Part shown: in pieces, positions 27,523 to 39,640 of the stretch
Layout: each line of letters opens with the position of its first letter
Position numbering within the stretch: position 1 is the stretch's first letter
Source of the DNA: an uncultured Eubacteriales bacterium
Lineage (GTDB): Bacteria; Bacillota; Clostridia; Christensenellales; CAG-138
Direction of reading: 5' to 3'
DNA: 64,000 nucleotides
Assembly: GCA_902768795.1 (NCBI GenBank)
Contig: CACXMS010000006.1
Coordinates: forward strand, 64,654-128,653
Program-made: the position numbers and the translations under genes
Notes under the pieces: generated by a model
Seen by the model: only the letters and a program-made list of their open reading frames with translations
The model's database searches: none
Told to the model about the DNA's origin: nothing

Positions 27523-28623
27523 ATGCCATATCAGATTATCCGAAACGATATTACGGCGATGCACGTTGACGCGATCGTCAATCCGACGGACTGGATCTAT
27601 TCGGGAAGCGGCGGAACGGATGAAAAAATCCATTTGGCAGCGGGGGAAGATCTTCGCCGCGCGTGCGACGTTTTGCCTCCGCTTGAGACAGGCGAGGCGA
27701 TCGTTACAGACGGTTTTCGCCTTCCGTGCCGCTATGTAATTCATACGATCGGGCCGATTTGGACCGGCGGCGATCAAAACGAGCGCGAAACGCTGATCGC
27801 CTGTTACCGTAACTGCCTGCGCGCGGCTTTCAATCTTGCCTGCGAAACCGTTGCGTTTCCGTTGATCGCATCGGGTACTTTCGGATATCCGAAGGATCAG
27901 GTGCTGAGAGTTGCGCTTGAAACGATTGCAGAATTCCTGATGGCGCATGAAATGACGGTATATATCGTTGTATATGACAAAGAATCGTATGCGATCAGCA
28001 AAAAACTGCATGCTGAAATCGAATCTTATATCGACGAGAACTATATCGAAAATGAGGAATCCTCTCTTTCTGACCGGATTCTGTCAGGAAAAGAACATAG
28101 CGGTTTTCTTCTGAACGCGGCGCTTCCGCCGGAAACATGCTTGCATGCGGCAGCGGCGGAGGAAGTATGTGCGCCGGAACCGAAAAGAAAAGCGAAACGG
28201 ACCGCTGCTTCGCTGTCAGAGAAAAAAAGCATCAATCAATACGAGAAGGCAAGCCTGGATTCCATGCTCGCTTCGATGGACGAAGGATTCAGCAGCGCGC
28301 TTTTCCGGTGGATCGACGCGAAAGGGATGACGGATGTGGAATGCTATAAAAAAGCGAATATTGATAAAAAACTGTTTTCCAAAATCCGCAATCCGTCCTA
28401 CCGACCATCCAAACCGACAATTCTGGCATTTGCCGTTGCGCTGGAACTGACGTTGGAAGAAACAAAAGCGTTGCTGGAAACGGCCGGCCTGGCGCTTTCC
28501 CGCAGCAGCCGGTTTGATGTGATCGTATCGTTTTTTATTTCAAACGGGAAATATGACCTCTGGGAAATCAACGAAACCCTGTATCAGTACGACCTGCCCT
28601 GTCTCGGCAATGTTATCGCGTAG
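27523..28623 (+). CDS. Macro-domain protein with C-terminal HTH-like domain
   Basis: Residues 1-165 are a macro (ADP-ribose-binding) domain: IRNDITAMHVDAIVNPTDW, the SGSGGTDEKIHLAAG loop, YVIHTIGPIW and FPLIASGTFGYP. After a Glu/Ala linker with KRKAKRT, residues about 240-366 form a helical domain in which MTDVECYKKANIDKKLFSKI, SKPTILAFAVALELTLEETK resemble an Xre helix-turn-helix. It could therefore sense or remove ADP-ribose and bind nucleic acid or protein through the tail (inference). Same-strand neighbours are a vWA protein and an ADP-ribosylglycohydrolase. GGGGG ribosome site; no clear promoter found. Confidence 0.88.
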   Translation: MPYQIIRNDITAMHVDAIVNPTDWIYSGSGGTDEKIHLAAGEDLRRACDVLPPLETGEAIVTDGFRLPCRYVIHTIGPIWTGGDQNERETLIACYRNCLRAAFNLACETVAFPLIASGTFGYPKDQVLRVALETIAEFLMAHEMTVYIVVYDKESYAISKKLHAEIESYIDENYIENEESSLSDRILSGKEHSGFLLNAALPPETCLHAAAAEEVCAPEPKRKAKRTAASLSEKKSINQYEKASLDSMLASMDEGFSSALFRWIDAKGMTDVECYKKANIDKKLFSKIRNPSYRPSKPTILAFAVALELTLEETKALLETAGLALSRSSRFDVIVSFFISNGKYDLWEINETLYQYDLPCLGNVIA

Positions 28624-28717
28624 CCGATATTGCCTGAAAGAGTCGCTTACCGGGCGACCGCATGCAACGTTTCATGTGTTATACTGACGCCGAAAACAAA
28701 AACAGGAGGGCAGACAC

Positions 28718-29368
28718 ATGAAAAAAGACACAATGGAATTGGTCATGATCCTTGATCGCAGCGGATCCATGGCGGGACTGGTAAGCGACACGGTCGGAGG
28801 TTTCAACGCGATGATTGAGCGGCAGCGTAAGCTGCCGGGGGAAGTATATGTTTCCACGGTGCTGTTCAATTCCTGTTCCACCGTGCTTCACGATCGTGTT
28901 CCGATCGAAAAGATCGAACCGCTGACGGAGAATGAATATCAGCCCGCGGGCTGCACGGCTTTGATCGACGCGCTCGGTGATGCGATCCATCATATCGGTC
29001 TTGTTCATAAGTACGCGAGGCCGGAAGATGTTCCCGAAAAGACCTTGTTTGTGATCACGACCGACGGGATGGAGAATGCGAGCCGAAAATATGACGCCGA
29101 CGAGGTGCGCGCAAAGATCCGGCGACAGCAGGAACGGTACGGTTGGGAATTTCTGTTTCTCGGCGCCAACATCGATGCGGTTGAAACGGCGCGGCGCTAT
29201 GGAATCCGCGAGGATCGTGCGGTCAACTTTCATGCCGATCGCCTCGGCGTGCGGAAGTCCATGGAGTCGGTTTCCGAGGCGGCGGTCATTTTGCGAACCC
29301 GGCCGACGCTGAGCGAAGATTGGAAAGCAGAAGTCGAAAAAGACTATAACGATCGAAAAAACGGATAA
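28718..29368 (+). CDS. von Willebrand factor A (vWA) domain protein
   Basis: A cytoplasmic 216-residue protein that is essentially one vWA domain with an intact metal site: Asp13-Ser15-Ser17 (DRSGSM), Thr80 (GCTALIDAL) and Asp116 (TTDGMEN). It looks like the TerY-like or stand-alone vWA proteins that act as metal-dependent protein-binding scaffolds. No signal or membrane segment. GGAGGG precedes ATG. A TATACT element at about 28680 may give it its own promoter. The ADP-ribosylglycohydrolase starts 22 nt later, so the two are cotranscribed. Confidence 0.88.
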   Translation: MKKDTMELVMILDRSGSMAGLVSDTVGGFNAMIERQRKLPGEVYVSTVLFNSCSTVLHDRVPIEKIEPLTENEYQPAGCTALIDALGDAIHHIGLVHKYARPEDVPEKTLFVITTDGMENASRKYDADEVRAKIRRQQERYGWEFLFLGANIDAVETARRYGIREDRAVNFHADRLGVRKSMESVSEAAVILRTRPTLSEDWKAEVEKDYNDRKNG

Positions 29369-29390
29369 AACCGAACGGAGGAGAATTGAG

Positions 29391-30185
29391 ATGATCGGTG
29401 CAATGATCGGAGATATCGTCGGCTCGCGATTCGAGTGGCACAATATCAAGTCAAAACAGTTCCAATTTTTTCATGAACGCTGCAAGTTCACGGATGATAC
29501 GGTTATGACGCTTGCAATCGCAAAGGCGGTTCTTTTGTCGGGAGGCAATGTCTCGCTTTTGTCCGATCAGGCAGTTAAGTGCATGCAGACGGTCGGGCGG
29601 CCGTACCCGGATTGCGGTTGGGGCGGACACTTCCGGCATTGGATCTATTCGGATGATCCCAAACCGTACAACAGTTGGGGAAACGGTTCCGCGATGCGCG
29701 TCAGCGCTGTTGCGTGGGCGGCAAAGGATCTTGCAACCTGCATCGCCATGAGCGAGGCAGTCACGGCCGTTACGCACAACCATCCAGAGGGGATCAAGGG
29801 CGCGAATGCAATCGCCGCAGCGACTTTTCTCGCCCTGCACGGCGCGTCGAAGGACGAGATCAAAACGCATATTGAAACAACATACGGCTATGATCTTAAC
29901 TTTTCCCTCGATTCCATCCGCGAATCCTATTCCTTTGACGTTTCCTGCATGGGGACCGTTCCGCCTGCGATCGCGGCATTCCTGGAATCGACAGACTTTG
30001 AGGACGCGATCCGAAATGCAATCAGCATCGGCGGGGACAGCGATACGCTCGCGGCCTGTACCGGCGCGATCGCAGAGGCGTTTTACGGGGTTCCGGCCCG
30101 GATCCGGGATGCTGCAAAATTGCATCTTGACAGCAGACTGGACGCGATTCTGACCGAGTTTGAAGAGGTTTATCCCGGAAAGTGA
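29391..30185 (+). CDS. ADP-ribosylglycohydrolase family protein
   Basis: Hydrolase removing ADP-ribose from proteins or small molecules through a binuclear Mg site. GAMIGDIVGSRFEWH opens the fold, KFTDDTVMT (32-40) supplies the first Thr/Asp/Asp metal ligands, GGWGGHFRHW-type GWGGHFRHWIY lies centrally, TAVTHNHPEG follows, and IGGDSDTLAACTGAIAEA gives the second metal ligands. The 264-residue length is normal. Third gene of the macro-vWA-ARH cluster; followed by a strong terminator. Target unknown. Confidence 0.92.
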   Translation: MIGAMIGDIVGSRFEWHNIKSKQFQFFHERCKFTDDTVMTLAIAKAVLLSGGNVSLLSDQAVKCMQTVGRPYPDCGWGGHFRHWIYSDDPKPYNSWGNGSAMRVSAVAWAAKDLATCIAMSEAVTAVTHNHPEGIKGANAIAAATFLALHGASKDEIKTHIETTYGYDLNFSLDSIRESYSFDVSCMGTVPPAIAAFLESTDFEDAIRNAISIGGDSDTLAACTGAIAEAFYGVPARIRDAAKLHLDSRLDAILTEFEEVYPGK

Positions 30186-30212
30186 TCTGAACGAAAAACA
30201 ATTGAAGATACG

Positions 30213-30248
30213 CAGCGATCCGATCTCAAATCGGATCGCTGTCTTTTA
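30213..30248 (+). terminator. Terminator of the vWA-ARH operon
   Basis: CAGCGATCCGAT / ATCGGATCGCTG perfect 12-bp stem with CTCAA loop, then CTTTTATTTT-like T-rich run. Confidence 0.9.
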
Positions 30249-30316: not shown

Positions 30317-30358
30317 TTACATTTTGGTGACATTTTTGCATTTTTGGCATGGTATCAT
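30317..30358 (+). promoter_or_regulatory. Response-regulator boxes and promoter of first two-component operon
   Basis: TTACA (30317) and TGACA (30328) are 11 bp apart; 20 bp separate the end of TGACA from the -10 TATCAT (30353-30358). The same element with the same spacing stands before the lipoprotein gene at 32512. There is no good -35, so transcription probably needs the activator. Confidence 0.65.
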
Positions 30359-30391
30359 AGTCTTGTCAGGAAACAAGCAAGGAGGAGCCAT

Positions 30392-31045
30392 GTGAAAAAT
30401 CGGATTTTGATTGTGGAGGATGATCGGGACATCCGCGAAAGTCTTGCCTTGAATCTGGATTTGTCCGGGTATGCGTATGTCGCGTTGGAGGACGGCGCAG
30501 AGGTCGTTCGCTACCTGGAAAACGATCATCGCTTCGATCTTGCGCTGCTTGACGTCATGCTGCCGGGATTGGACGGGTTTTCGTTGATGGAAGAAATGAA
30601 GCGGTACGAGATCGCCGTCATCTACCTGACCGCAAAAACCGACGTGAAATCCCGTGTGTACGGGCTGCGGGAAGGCGCGGAAGATTATATCGTGAAACCG
30701 TTTGAAATGCTGGAGCTTTTGGTTCGCATTGAAAAAATACTCGAGCGAACCGGTCGAAGCCGCAAAACGCTGGAATACCGCGATCTGACGGTCGACACTG
30801 TCATGCATGCCGTTTGGCGCGGCGGCGAGATTCTGCATCTGCAGCCGTTGGAGTACGAATTGCTTGTAAAGTTTATCCGATTCAAAAACTGTACGCTTTC
30901 GCGGGAACGGCTTCTTTCCGAGGTCTGGGGGTACAGCTATTTCGGCAGTACACGCACGGTCGATACGCACGTCTCCCGGATTCGCCGGGATCTGAATCTC
31001 AATATCGTAACAGTACCGAAATGCGGCTACCGATTGGAGGATTGA
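30392..31045 (+). CDS. OmpR/PhoB-family response regulator
   Basis: Receiver domain (1-118) with acidic pocket EDD at 9-11, phospho-acceptor Asp54 (LLDVMLPG), YLTAKTD and the conserved Lys in VKPFE; then a winged-helix domain (about 125-217) with LQPLEYELLVKF, WGYSYFGSTRTVDTHVSRIR and CGYRLED. GTG at 30392 is preferred: GGAGG lies 6 nt upstream, and the longer frame overlaps the operator. The kinase gene starts 1 nt after its stop. Likely binds the TTACA/TGACA repeats before its own operon and before the lipoprotein gene. Confidence 0.93.
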   Translation: MKNRILIVEDDRDIRESLALNLDLSGYAYVALEDGAEVVRYLENDHRFDLALLDVMLPGLDGFSLMEEMKRYEIAVIYLTAKTDVKSRVYGLREGAEDYIVKPFEMLELLVRIEKILERTGRSRKTLEYRDLTVDTVMHAVWRGGEILHLQPLEYELLVKFIRFKNCTLSRERLLSEVWGYSYFGSTRTVDTHVSRIRRDLNLNIVTVPKCGYRLED

Positions 31046-31046
31046 C

Positions 31047-32429
31047 GTGAAGATCCGTACCCGAATCGTATTGTTTTCGATCGCAGTAACGACGGCTGCA
31101 TTGGCTGTTACGGCGACACTGCTGATACTCTTTGTGCAAAAAACGACCGTCGATGCGATCCGGACCACCGCGATTGCCGACACGAAAAATTTTGCGGTCT
31201 TTTTTATGCGGACAAAAGCGGAGGAGCGGGAAACGAGTAAATTGCTCGGAAGAACGTACGGCCTGTACCGTTTTCGAATGCTTGCAATGCACGAGGAATT
31301 CACACTTCACAACGGCGAGGAGTACCTATATAACGCCTTCGGATTTGCGCCGGAGTCCGTTTTGAAAACGGAAGAGAACGGCATGGAAACGGAATACGAA
31401 CCGAAATGTCACTTTCTGGAATACGGCGGCGCGCGATATGCGATCGTGATCGACAGAGCGCGTCTCGACGGGCATTCCTATACGCTTTCGCTGGTGCGGG
31501 ATGTTACCGAAACATTCGCACGTATGCGCCGGATTCAATGGTATTGCGCCGGATTGACAGCTGCAGTCGCATTGCTGGCGGCCGCAGTTGTCTGGATTGT
31601 CGCGCGAAACATGCTCCGCCCGATAGAATCGCTTCGCCGCAGCGCAGCAGACATAGCTTCCGGCAATTATCGGAATCGGATCGCCGTTCGCGGAAGGGAC
31701 GAGCTTGCGGCGCTCGCAAACGATTTCAACACGATGGCAGACGCCGTCGAACAGCATACCGAGGCGCTGCGGGAACGAAACGAACGGCAGCAGATGTTTA
31801 TCAACGATTTATCCCATGAACTGAAAACACCGGTTACCTCAATCCTTTTGAACTCGGAAACGCTTTTGAAACGCCGCGTTTCCGAGGAGGAACAGATGAA
31901 TGCGCTGGCAAGAATTTACGATCAGGGCACATGGCTGGAAAGACTGTCTCAAAAACTGATGACGCTGGTTATGCTGCAGGGGGAAATCGATCGAATGCCT
32001 TATGCTGTTTCCGATCTGATCGAAGCGGTCGAAGCTACGGTGCGCGCAGGAATCGAGGAGCAGGGAATGCGGCTGTTGACAGAGTCGGATGACAGTGTGC
32101 TGGAAATGGATTTTGACTTGCTTCGTTCTGCGGTTGTGAACCTTGTTGAAAATGCGCGAAAGGCAAGCGAGCCGGGGCAGACCATCCGACTTTTTGCCAA
32201 AAAACAAACGATCGTTGTCCGGGATGAGGGCAAGGGGATTCCCGCGTCCGAACTGGACCGTATCATGGAACCGTTTTATATGGTGGATCGCTCCCGCAGC
32301 AGAAAGAAAGGAGGATCCGGACTCGGGCTTGCGCTTGTTCGGGAGATTGTCGAAGCGCATCGCGGTCGGATGTGGATCGAAAGCACGGTCGGAGCAGGGA
32401 CGACCGTCACATTGTATTTCGAAAAATGA
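31047..32429 (+). CDS. Membrane sensor histidine kinase
   Basis: Partner of the preceding regulator. TM1 (about 6-30), an extracellular sensor of about 135 residues, TM2 (about 170-192), a HAMP linker, then HisKA with FINDLSHELKTPVTS (His257) and the ATP domain with VNLVENARKA, RDEGKGIP and GGSGLGLALVREIV. The GTG start follows GGAGG inside the end of the regulator gene. The sensor part has no recognisable fold. The target lipoprotein gene begins 83 nt downstream. Confidence 0.93.
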   Translation: MKIRTRIVLFSIAVTTAALAVTATLLILFVQKTTVDAIRTTAIADTKNFAVFFMRTKAEERETSKLLGRTYGLYRFRMLAMHEEFTLHNGEEYLYNAFGFAPESVLKTEENGMETEYEPKCHFLEYGGARYAIVIDRARLDGHSYTLSLVRDVTETFARMRRIQWYCAGLTAAVALLAAAVVWIVARNMLRPIESLRRSAADIASGNYRNRIAVRGRDELAALANDFNTMADAVEQHTEALRERNERQQMFINDLSHELKTPVTSILLNSETLLKRRVSEEEQMNALARIYDQGTWLERLSQKLMTLVMLQGEIDRMPYAVSDLIEAVEATVRAGIEEQGMRLLTESDDSVLEMDFDLLRSAVVNLVENARKASEPGQTIRLFAKKQTIVVRDEGKGIPASELDRIMEPFYMVDRSRSRKKGGSGLGLALVREIVEAHRGRMWIESTVGAGTTVTLYFEK

Positions 32430-32482
32430 TTACAAATTGATTACAGTTCGATGACAACTCTGCAAATCGGATTCGTTATCAT
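32430..32482 (+). promoter_or_regulatory. Three 11-bp response-regulator boxes and promoter of the lipoprotein gene
   Basis: GATTACA, GATTACA and GATGACA occur at exact 11-bp steps (TTACA at 32430 and 32441, TGACA at 32452). After TGACA come 20 bp and TATCAT (32477-32482), as before the regulator operon. Confidence 0.75.
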
Positions 32483-32511
32483 AAAGACAGAACATCCAAG
32501 GAGGTTTGTTT

Positions 32512-33869
32512 ATGAAACGAATCATGATCATTACTGTTGCGGCGCTGCTTTTGCTGTCGCTTGCCTGCCAAAGGACGCCGAAGATTCCGACCGTCGTACC
32601 GAAGGATCAGGAAGCGATGATGCCGATGTGCTTGCCAAACGGACCGATCTGCCGGTCGTTCGCGTTGCGGCGGAGGGCTTTTCGCAGGAGACGGCAAAGA
32701 ACATGTTCGACTACTGGTTTGCGGGCGAGCCGGCGTACCAGAATCCGCGCTATCAGGAGCAGACGAAATCCGAAATCGAACCGATGCTGCAGCGCGCTTA
32801 TGAGATGACCGAGACAAAGGAATATCTGGAATACGATTGGGAAGAGGAAGAGTGGAAGGAGCATATTGCGATGATAGAAGAGGAATATCGCAACGCGCCG
32901 GAAGTACATTCCTCCGAACCGAGACAGGAGGACGGAACCCTGCATGAGATAACGTCGGGAAAATCGGACGGAACGATCTGGGAGCTTGACGCAAGTTCGG
33001 ATACCGGCCGCTGGCTTTCTCTTCATTCCGATCCCTCCGCAAAGAACGAATGGCTGACGAGCTCGGCATGGTTTGTTAGTGGAAACGCGCATTATCCGTC
33101 CTATAACGAAATCAATCTGAAGCGTGTCGATGAGAACACCGAGCTTCCGAAGGAATTGACGCTGACCTATGCGGAAGCGGTGGCAAAGGGAGATGCAATC
33201 GTTCAGGCGTTTGGCGAGCCGATGCAGCTTCACAGCGTGTTCCTCGTAGACGACGAGCAGGACGGGCATCAGGACGATCTGGTGCAGCCGGCCGAATCCT
33301 ACGCGCTCCAGCTGTATTATACGCGTACATACAACGGGATTCCGCTCGCGTTGGAAACCAGCTCGAGCGCAGAGAATGATCAGGTGTTCTCCCTGTACTG
33401 GCAGCATGAATTCCTCCTGATCGTGCTGGATAACAACGGTATTGACGAGATCCGCTGGCAGGAACCGCTGACATTCCGCGACGTAGTGGTGGAACACAGC
33501 AATCTGCTTCCGTTTGAACAGATCCGCGAGCTGTCGGAGCAAATGTACCCGATCATCTATAAAACCAGGGCGACCCAGAGCGAGCAGAACGGGAACCCGT
33601 GCAAAATTGAGGTCAATGTTGACCGGATCGACCTTGAGCTGATGCGGATTCGTGAGCAGAACGTCACCGACGCGCGCATCGGTCTTGCAGTTCCGACCTG
33701 GGTGTTTTACGGAACGGTCAAAATGATCGAAAACCCCGGAACTCCGGAAGAATATGTCATGTATCAGTCATTCAGTACGGGCGGCGGCAGCGACTGGCCG
33801 GAAGAAGTGGCCGTACTTGCCATCAACGCGGTCGACGGATCGCTGATCAATCCGATTCTCGGGTATTGA
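32512..33869 (+). pseudogene. DUF6034-like secreted lipoprotein gene with a frameshift
   Basis: The start is clear: AAGGAGG (32498-32504), ATG at 32512, and a lipoprotein signal MKRIMIITVAALLLLSLAC. This frame then continues TPKIPTVVPKDQEA and loses sense. From about 32616 the neighbouring frame carries a coherent protein, ADVLAKRTDLPVVRVAAEGF and on to the stop at 33869 (about 415 residues), which resembles the DUF6034 family (from memory). One base seems missing between about 32608 and 32625, near GCGATGATGCC. Either a real frameshift or a sequencing indel. Function unknown; regulated by the adjacent two-component system by its promoter boxes. Confidence 0.7.
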
Positions 33870-37429: not shown

Positions 37430-37432
37430 GGT

Positions 37433-37478
37433 TTGGACATACTTTTGACGCATTTTGGACGAATTTCCCTGTTATAAT
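37433..37478 (+). promoter_or_regulatory. Three 11-bp repeats and -10 of second two-component operon
   Basis: TTGGACATACT, TTTGACGCATT and TTGGACGAATT follow each other without gap (37433-37465), then TATAAT at 37473-37478. No -35 is spaced properly, so an activator, probably the encoded regulator, is expected to bind the repeats. Confidence 0.65.
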
Positions 37479-37510: not shown

Positions 37511-38203
37511 ATGATTCGTATTCTCGTCGTTGACGATGAACAGCCGATCGCAAATCTGATTCGCATGAATCTTTCCCGGATGGGATATGCCTGCACTTGT
37601 GCATACGACGGGCAGGAAGCCGCAGACCTGCTGGAAAAAAACATGTTTGATCTTGTTTTGCTGGATATCATGCTTCCGAAATACAACGGATACGATCTTC
37701 TGGCGTTCATTCGTCCGATGAACATTCCTGTGATCTTTCTGACGGCTAAAAGCGATGTCAACGACCGTGTCAAGGGCCTGCGCCTCGGGGCGGAGGATTA
37801 TATTGTCAAGCCGTTTGAACTGATGGAACTCGTTGCCCGGATCGAGGTCGTTTTGCGCCGATACAACAAGAGCAGGAAGTATCTTGCTATTTTGGATATT
37901 GTGATCGACTATGAGGGGCGTGCGGTGCTGCGAAACGGTGAAAAGATTGATCTTACGCGCAAGGAGTTTGACCTGCTTGTCGTGCTTTGTCAGAATCCGA
38001 ATACCGCCTTGTTCCGGGAAGCGTTGTTTGAACGAATCTGGGAAACGGACTATATGGGGGAAACCAGGACGCTCGACAGCCACATTCAGCGTCTTCGCCG
38101 AAAGCTTGGATGGCAGGACCGCATCAAGACCGTCCATAAAGTCGGTTATCGACTGGAAGTCCCGGCGGAGGAAGCGCCGAGGGAAATCACCGAGGCGTTC
38201 TGA
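37511..38203 (+). CDS. OmpR/PhoB-family response regulator
   Basis: Receiver domain with DDE at 8-10, Asp52 (LLDIMLPKYNG), FLTAKSD and VKPFE, followed by a winged-helix domain with LTRKEFDLLVVL, WETDYMGETRTLDSHIQRLR and VGYRLEV. GAGGAGGGG lies upstream of ATG. The kinase starts 6 nt after the stop. Distinct from the first system (about the same length but different helix sequences), and its upstream repeats differ as well. Confidence 0.94.
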   Translation: MIRILVVDDEQPIANLIRMNLSRMGYACTCAYDGQEAADLLEKNMFDLVLLDIMLPKYNGYDLLAFIRPMNIPVIFLTAKSDVNDRVKGLRLGAEDYIVKPFELMELVARIEVVLRRYNKSRKYLAILDIVIDYEGRAVLRNGEKIDLTRKEFDLLVVLCQNPNTALFREALFERIWETDYMGETRTLDSHIQRLRRKLGWQDRIKTVHKVGYRLEVPAEEAPREITEAF

Positions 38204-38209
38204 TCCGGT

Positions 38210-39640
38210 ATGAAATTCGCCCTGAAAATCTGCTTGTGTACCGTTTTGATCGTAGCTCTGCTCTTTGGAATCGCAGGGCAGATTTTGGTTGCAAGAAGCT
38301 TTGACGCCGCATTGGAATTCCGTGTCCGCATGGCGGAGGCGGAATTTTCCGCGCTGGCTTCCGCGCTGGAAGCGGAGATCTACGGAATTCGGCTGTATTA
38401 CAGCGCAGTTTCCCGACAGATGTATGAGGAACTTCTGACACGTGCGAGCCGAAATCAGGGCACGGACGCACCGTGTGCGCTGTACTCCGAGGACGGCGTG
38501 CTTATTTCCTCATTTGGCGGAGATTTTTCCGGGACGATCGCCTTTTCCGAAATCGGACCGCGACGTTTCGCCTATCGGCTTTCCCGCGAAGACAATGCTG
38601 TAATCCTGCATACGGCGGGAGGCGTTGTGATCGGCGGAAACAATTATTATCTTTCCGTTCAGTACCGGGCCGACGATCTGATGCAGCTTCGGGACGATCA
38701 GATCCGATCGATCATTCTGCTGCATTGCATTACGGTCGCCGTCTGCACTGCCGTTATGCTGATCGTTGCGTGGGCGATTTCCAAGCCGCTTGTTCGGCTG
38801 AAGCGGTTTACGGGCATAATCGGAAAGGGCAATTACTCTCGCAGGGCGAAGGTAACGACGCTGGATGAAATCGGCGATCTGACGGTCGCCTTCAACAATA
38901 TGACCGGTGCGATCGAACAAAAGGTGACGGAACTCGAAAACAACGCAAAGCAGCAAAAGGATTTTGTCGCAAGCTTTTCCCATGAACTGAAAACGCCGAT
39001 GACGTCGATCATCGGCTATGCCGATATGCTTCGGAGCTCCGAGCTTGATGAAGAGGATGCGTTCATGGCCGCCAATTTTATCCACAGCGAGGGCAAGCGC
39101 CTGGAAGCGCTGTCGTTGAAGCTGATGGATCTTGTCGTGCTCGATAAAACCGATTTCAAACTGATGCGAGGTTATGCGAAAAAAGCGCTCGGGCACGTTG
39201 TCGCGGTTGTTACCCCGATGTTGCAGAATGCGGATCTGACGTTTTATTACGATATTGAACAGAGGATCATTTTGTATGAAAAGGATCTCTTTCTGACGCT
39301 GGTGACAAATATTGTGGACAATGCGCGAAAAGCGTCGTCGCCGGGGAAAAGAATTTGGTTGACCGGCAAAAAGAGCGCAGACCGGTATCGCATCGAAGTG
39401 CGTGATGAAGGCATTGGAATTCCAAAGGAAGAGCTTTCCCGCATCACGGAAGCGTTTTATATGGTCGATAAATCACGCGCGAGAGCGCAGCATGGCGCAG
39501 GACTCGGGCTTGCGATTGCAAATCGCATCGCGATGCTGCACGGAAGCACGCTGCACTTTGAAAGCGAGCAGGGAAAGGGAACGACCGTTTGGTTCGACGT
39601 TGCGATCGCGCCGCGGGAGAGGAGGCCGGACGATGAATAA
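38210..39640 (+). CDS. Membrane sensor histidine kinase
   Basis: TM1 (about 4-26), an extracellular part of about 135 residues rich in aromatic and charged residues, TM2 (about 168-190), HAMP (FTGIIGKGNYSRRAKV onward), HisKA with VASFSHELKTPMTSIIGYA (His258), and the ATP domain with VTNIVDNARKAS, VRDEGIGIPKEEL and HGAGLGLAIANRIA. VanS/BaeS-like overall. Weak ribosome site. Its last codons overlap the start of the accessory gene. Confidence 0.94.
   Translation: MKFALKICLCTVLIVALLFGIAGQILVARSFDAALEFRVRMAEAEFSALASALEAEIYGIRLYYSAVSRQMYEELLTRASRNQGTDAPCALYSEDGVLISSFGGDFSGTIAFSEIGPRRFAYRLSREDNAVILHTAGGVVIGGNNYYLSVQYRADDLMQLRDDQIRSIILLHCITVAVCTAVMLIVAWAISKPLVRLKRFTGIIGKGNYSRRAKVTTLDEIGDLTVAFNNMTGAIEQKVTELENNAKQQKDFVASFSHELKTPMTSIIGYADMLRSSELDEEDAFMAANFIHSEGKRLEALSLKLMDLVVLDKTDFKLMRGYAKKALGHVVAVVTPMLQNADLTFYYDIEQRIILYEKDLFLTLVTNIVDNARKASSPGKRIWLTGKKSADRYRIEVRDEGIGIPKEELSRITEAFYMVDKSRARAQHGAGLGLAIANRIAMLHGSTLHFESEQGKGTTVWFDVAIAPRERRPDDE

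Follow-up and report, generated by a model that had tools for sequence, protein, structure and literature searches.

An 11-bp direct-repeat element, probably a PhoB-type operator, before a two-component operon and a DUF6034 lipoprotein gene in an uncultured Clostridia bacterium

In the window (the whole 64,000-nucleotide stretch of DNA analysed here), an OmpR/PhoB-family response regulator gene starting at 30392, its sensor histidine kinase gene and a DUF6034 lipoprotein gene follow one another on the plus strand. Short repeats precede the first and the third of these genes, which raises the question of whether they form one operator and which protein reads it. The first-pass annotation had described both promoters as identical, with TTACA and TGACA boxes at an 11-bp step, exactly 20 bp from TGACA to TATCAT and no −35. 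Direct reading of the sequence confirmed the step and the 20-bp spacer at both promoters, and no sigma-70-type −35/−10 pair was found on the plus strand at either (Table 1). The identity extends to the step and the spacer, but not further. The promoters differ because promoter 2 has three boxes, the additional TTACA lying immediately 3' of the kinase stop codon. The boxes end 31 and 20 bp before the −10 in promoter 1, and 42, 31 and 20 bp before it in promoter 2; the −10 is extended in the former and plain in the latter. Promoter 1 is set apart from upstream transcription by an intrinsic terminator. Just upstream lie two genes close together on one strand (27523-30182), the first for a macrodomain protein (27523) and the second for an ADP-ribosylglycohydrolase (29391), with another ORF between them.

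Table 1. Features of the two promoters and of both two-component systems, in window coordinates.
Feature	Position	Strand	Basis or detail
Intrinsic terminator of preceding gene	30212..30242	+	13-bp stem, 5-nt loop, T-rich tail
Promoter 1 box, 31 bp from −10, TTACA	30317..30321	+	sequence; kept in 89%-identical orthologous locus (L033/L123)
Promoter 1 box, 20 bp from −10, TGACA, at −35 position	30328..30332	+	sequence; kept in L033/L123
Promoter 1 −10, TATCAT, extended by TGG (30350-30352)	30353..30358	+	register agrees with relatives
OmpR/PhoB-family response regulator	30392..31045	+	Response_reg PF00072, Trans_reg_C PF00486
Sensor histidine kinase (HAMP, HisKA, HATPase_c)	31047..32429	+	Pfam
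Promoter 2 box, 42 bp from −10, TTACA	32430..32434	+	sequence; kept in L033/L123
Promoter 2 box, 31 bp from −10, TTACA	32441..32445	+	with 42-bp box forms the N31 pair seen across Clostridia
Promoter 2 box, 20 bp from −10, TGACA	32452..32456	+	position-specific conservation
Promoter 2 −10, TATCAT	32477..32482	+	sequence
DUF6034 lipoprotein gene, broken	32512..33869	+	PF19499; alignment with intact orthologue (L123)
Second array: GGACA, 33 bp from −10 of second system	37435..37439	+	sequence
Second array: TGACG, 22 bp from −10	37446..37450	+	sequence
Second array: TTTTGGACGAAT-N8-TATAAT, GGACG 11 bp from −10	37453..37478	+	recurrence in family genomes
Second OmpR/PhoB-family response regulator	37511..38203	+	Pfam; PhoB model 194 bits, cut-off 296
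Second sensor histidine kinase	38210..39640	+	Pfam

The frequency of this arrangement was assessed by pattern searches, with reversed patterns as controls for genome-wide counts and shuffles for counts within the window. The exact pattern TTACA-N6-TGACA-N20-TATCAT occurs in the 1.9-Mb genome at promoters 1 and 2 only (reversed control 0), and the looser TKACA-N6-TKACA-N18-22-TANNAT returned the same two sites. The element is thus not scattered at random over the genome. Within the window, a relaxed form with one mismatch matched twice, again at promoters 1 and 2, where shuffles gave 0.04; without the −10, three box pairs were found and shuffles gave 0.17. Over the whole genome, box pairs without a −10 gave 13 matches against 9 for the reversed control, which is near background. 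As box pairs by themselves are not unusual in the genome, the rarity lies in their combination with the −10, and the case rests on this together with conservation.

Conservation was examined in orthologous and paralogous loci gathered by protein similarity, without use of the motif. The 143 dereplicated upstream regions (69 of regulator genes and 74 of DUF6034 genes) contain 72 T(T/G)ACA pairs at the 11-bp step against 0.13 expected. Both classes contribute, with 38 pairs before regulators (shuffle mean 0.06) and 34 before DUF6034 genes (0.07). Every other step from 6 to 20 yielded at most one pair, and the pairs lie almost only on the sense strand, a single region having one on the opposite strand. 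Across genera of Clostridia, the regulator gene, the DUF6034 gene or both are preceded by a box pair in fixed register with a −10; in some homologous loci the TKACA pair is absent at one or both promoters. The gene order regulator, kinase, boxes and DUF6034 gene recurs in Blautia luti, B. schinkii, Clostridium symbiosum, Eubacterium sp. 14-2, Parablautia and many uncultured Clostridia. The closest relative (isolate RUG416, contig ONLX01000128.1), with a regulator 89% identical, has the same layout at both promoters. These homology-chosen loci lend strong comparative support to the earlier proposal of a cis-element for regulator 30392, which would be the protein that binds it.

The position of the −10 in relatives shows that the 20-bp distance is one of two registers rather than the general rule. 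Among the 38 pair-bearing regulator promoters, TANNNT stands at N20/21 in 8 and at N31/32 in 26; in pair-bearing DUF6034 promoters it stands at N31/32 in 29 of 30. Thus, there are two registers, one 11-bp unit apart, and in most relatives the pair and the −10 are separated by 31/32 bp. By this comparison, promoter 2 is a regular N31 promoter with a well-kept third unit, its 20-bp box being usually degenerate (TGANG) in relatives, and promoter 1 belongs to the rarer N20 class. In 101 genomes of the family, TTACA-N6-TTACA-N31/32-TANNNT gave 178 sites against 11 for the summed reversed control; in the genus of the window the corresponding counts were 62 and 1. The genes downstream of the located sites are mostly DUF6034 or response-regulator genes, and other such sites precede a large permease-like protein and further lipoproteins. 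Arrays of at least four 11-bp units of the TTACAACTCTA type were also seen before other DUF6034 genes (L080 1711-1733, L081 7998-8020, L084 14685-14707).

The lipoprotein gene that had been proposed as a member of the regulon is itself broken in the window. Compared with the intact orthologue, a 97-bp deletion after about 32617 shifts its frame. The ribosome-binding site lies at about 32498-32504, and the reading frame at 32619-33866 encodes the C-terminal part. The window copy matches PF19499 with 211 bits over profile positions 82-481, the lipobox part being in another frame; the orthologue has a full-length match of 261 bits. Compared with the orthologue, the remainder of the gene shows a dN/dS of about 0.09, that is, strong constraint, so the break should be either recent or an assembly fault. 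Promoter 2 is intact despite the broken gene. Gut and rumen Clostridia of this kind have DUF6034 lipoproteins in many copies, and the family has no known function. The structure of the intact orthologue as modelled by AlphaFold (pLDDT 81) had 5COZ as its sole match (Foldseek E 3e-12, TM 0.45/0.59). This entry, EUBREC_2869, supplies one distant solved fold for the family; it is uncharacterised and gives no function, and in the literature searched no relevant mention of DUF6034 or 5COZ was found.

A third full site is present in the same genome on the minus strand of contig C3 (22149-22201), at the head of a one-strand operon running from 22201 to 12184 (loci L117 and L065). This operon encodes a 579-aa permease-like protein without a Pfam match, five DUF6034 lipoproteins and an ABC ATPase. 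The genome thus has three full sites, one each before the regulator operon, the DUF6034 gene of promoter 2 and this permease operon. The permease was found in 16 of 23 congeneric genomes. Among those with a readable upstream region, five congeners besides the own genome have the element directly before the permease, and the remaining ones lack it there. In several congeners without the element, a DUF6034 gene ends upstream of the permease, which is therefore internal to an operon. Allowing one mismatch, the N31 form gave 7 matches in the own genome against 3 in the control, which is too noisy to extend the regulon.

Regulator 30392 has a GTG start, a ribosome-binding site at 30380-30385 and a phospho-acceptor Asp54. 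It falls under all NCBIfam equivalog cut-offs among the matches listed, including those of PhoB (TIGR02154, 167 bits against 296.2), YycF (136 against 340) and MtrA (168 against 300). The kinase, in which Pfam found no PAS domain, scores below the cut-offs of PhoR (150 against 334.2), PnpS (177 against 400) and WalK (180 against 725). Identities as PhoB, PhoR or PnpS, and as WalRK or MtrAB, were accordingly rejected. A Pho system was likewise discarded on these cut-offs and on the genes under the element: none of the three full sites in the own genome precedes phosphate genes, degenerate sites being possible besides. In other genera, the N31/32 architecture stands before Na/Pi cotransporter-like genes identified by eye (L207, L208, L210, L211), which are perhaps part of a Pho regulon there.

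The OmpR/PhoB family binds tandem 11-bp repeats (PMC4832192, PMC4415409). PhoB and PhoP bind 11-bp direct repeats in tandem with strict spacing, forming trimers or tetramers on longer arrays (PMC4832192), and their sites overlap the −35 (PMC3348028). Three of the features expected of such an operator are found here: a regulator with a receiver and a winged-helix Trans_reg_C domain, 11-bp repeats in the same orientation, and a fixed position replacing the −35. The element resembles the Pho boxes of E. coli PhoB and B. subtilis PhoP, in which 11-bp direct repeats are bound head-to-tail, overlap the −35 and keep a strict distance from the core promoter (PMC4415409, PMC3348028, PMC10294691). However, its box is TTACA and that of E. 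coli is CTGTCAT, its predicted targets are its own system and DUF6034 lipoproteins instead of phosphate genes, and neither the regulator nor the kinase reaches the respective cut-off, PhoB or PhoR. The Mycobacterium tuberculosis PhoP repeat (TCACAGC-N4-TCACAGC) has the same step and a similar core (TCACA against TTACA). This PhoP binds as a cooperative tandem dimer, and more tightly where there are three or four repeats (PMC4832192); a sequence comparison of regulator 30392 with the PDB placed it among the best matches. The organism, targets and kinase are nevertheless different, and nothing indicates orthology. The element is a known kind of operator in a newly found instance; no description of its regulon was found.

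On the comparative evidence, the element is probably a PhoB-type activator operator of regulator 30392 that controls its own operon and a DUF6034 lipoprotein/ABC regulon. We infer that this regulator binds the element, that it activates and does not repress, that it depends on phosphorylation and that the system functions at the cell envelope. Phosphorylated regulator molecules would line up head-to-tail along one helix face, each on one 11-bp unit at a distance of 20, 31 or 42 bp from the −10; in this position they would make up for the lack of a −35 and make contact with RNA polymerase. The system would activate its own operon via the two units of promoter 1 and the adjacent DUF6034 gene via the three units of promoter 2. 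It would also activate the operon for the permease, the five DUF6034 lipoproteins and the ABC ATPase. With such an operator, the DUF6034 family would gain a candidate regulator, together with a regulon and an input that can be tested. The rule that boxes stand 20, 31 or 42 bp from the −10 can be used to find more members in culturable species such as Blautia. Furthermore, the locus and its relatives offer a natural promoter set in which a PhoB-type activator site is moved by exactly one helical turn.

The indirect grounds for taking regulator 30392 as the probable binder are its family, the boxes at its own promoter and beside its kinase across genera, and the way in which box variants track the subclade of its recognition helix. 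The window regulator and its orthologue, with the helix VDTHVSRIR, go with TTACA/TGACA boxes, and close regulators (64-66% identity) with the helix VDIHxAHLR mostly with TAACA boxes. The loci of the closest regulator orthologues (L068-L074) have TAACA/ATAACA boxes at the same 11-bp step. Few independent changes lie behind this pattern, and paralogues with other recognition helices likewise use TTACA. The box alone cannot name its regulator, since paralogues have similar TTACA boxes and in other genera Na/Pi cotransporter-like genes have the same architecture. On contig C7 of the own genome (L064), a paralogous regulator, followed by a kinase and then a DUF6034 gene, has by eye the degenerate promoter element AGACA-N6-TTACA-N32-TATAAT.

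The boxes might be read mainly by another PhoB-family paralogue, for example that at 37511 or on contig C7, regulator 30392 being a target of the network and not its controller. Similar 11-bp arrays in paralogous systems and hybrid promoters of relatives, in which TTACA boxes stand with the TTTTGGACGAAT element, are in keeping with this. The explanation is unlikely, since boxes at a regulator's own promoter and beside its kinase across genera usually point to autoregulation, the array of the second system is a distinct one of its own, and the box variants follow the helix subclades of regulator 30392. If that regulator is the binder, it could still act as a repressor which, seated on the −35 region, silences both promoters until dephosphorylated. 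PhoB activates or represses according to site position (PMC10294691), and a protein on the unit at 20 bp, which covers the −35 position, could exclude RNA polymerase. The missing −35 at both promoters, the fixed −10 register and the whole-turn shifts suit activation better, because a repressor would need no fixed register, and repression is accordingly considered quite improbable. Chance, or ordinary −35 variants with long spacers, would be suggested by the nearness of TGACA to the −35 consensus and by box pairs being fairly common in the genome when taken alone. Against this stand the shuffle and reversed-pattern controls, the conservation across genera and the choice of promoters by homology; no ordinary −35 was found at either promoter, and such an origin has hardly any likelihood. 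An activator site of regulator 30392 therefore remains the preferred reading.

The second two-component system of the window has a triple 11-bp array on the plus strand (37432-37478), GGACA/TGACG/GGACG, before TATAAT. It is kept in the closest relative except for a base change in the first unit. The core of this array, TTTTGGACGMAT-N8-TANNNT, was found at 56 sites in 22 of the 101 family genomes (reversed control 0), in two genera only. These sites lie mostly before DUF6034 or other lipoprotein-like genes, DUF6034 being downstream at 23 of 37 examined. TTACA-type pairs stand just upstream in the same promoter at 19 of these 37. Their position before DUF6034 genes, often together with TTACA pairs, suggests that the two systems control the lipoprotein regulon jointly. 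It is conceivable, and offered here tentatively, that the two adjacent two-component systems form one network for a large and so far undescribed lipoprotein/ABC regulon of this Clostridia lineage, acting through TTACA units at 20/31/42 bp, TGACG/GGACG units at 11/22/33 bp and hybrid promoters. Each DUF6034 or other lipoprotein gene would then be wired to one input, to the other, or to both.
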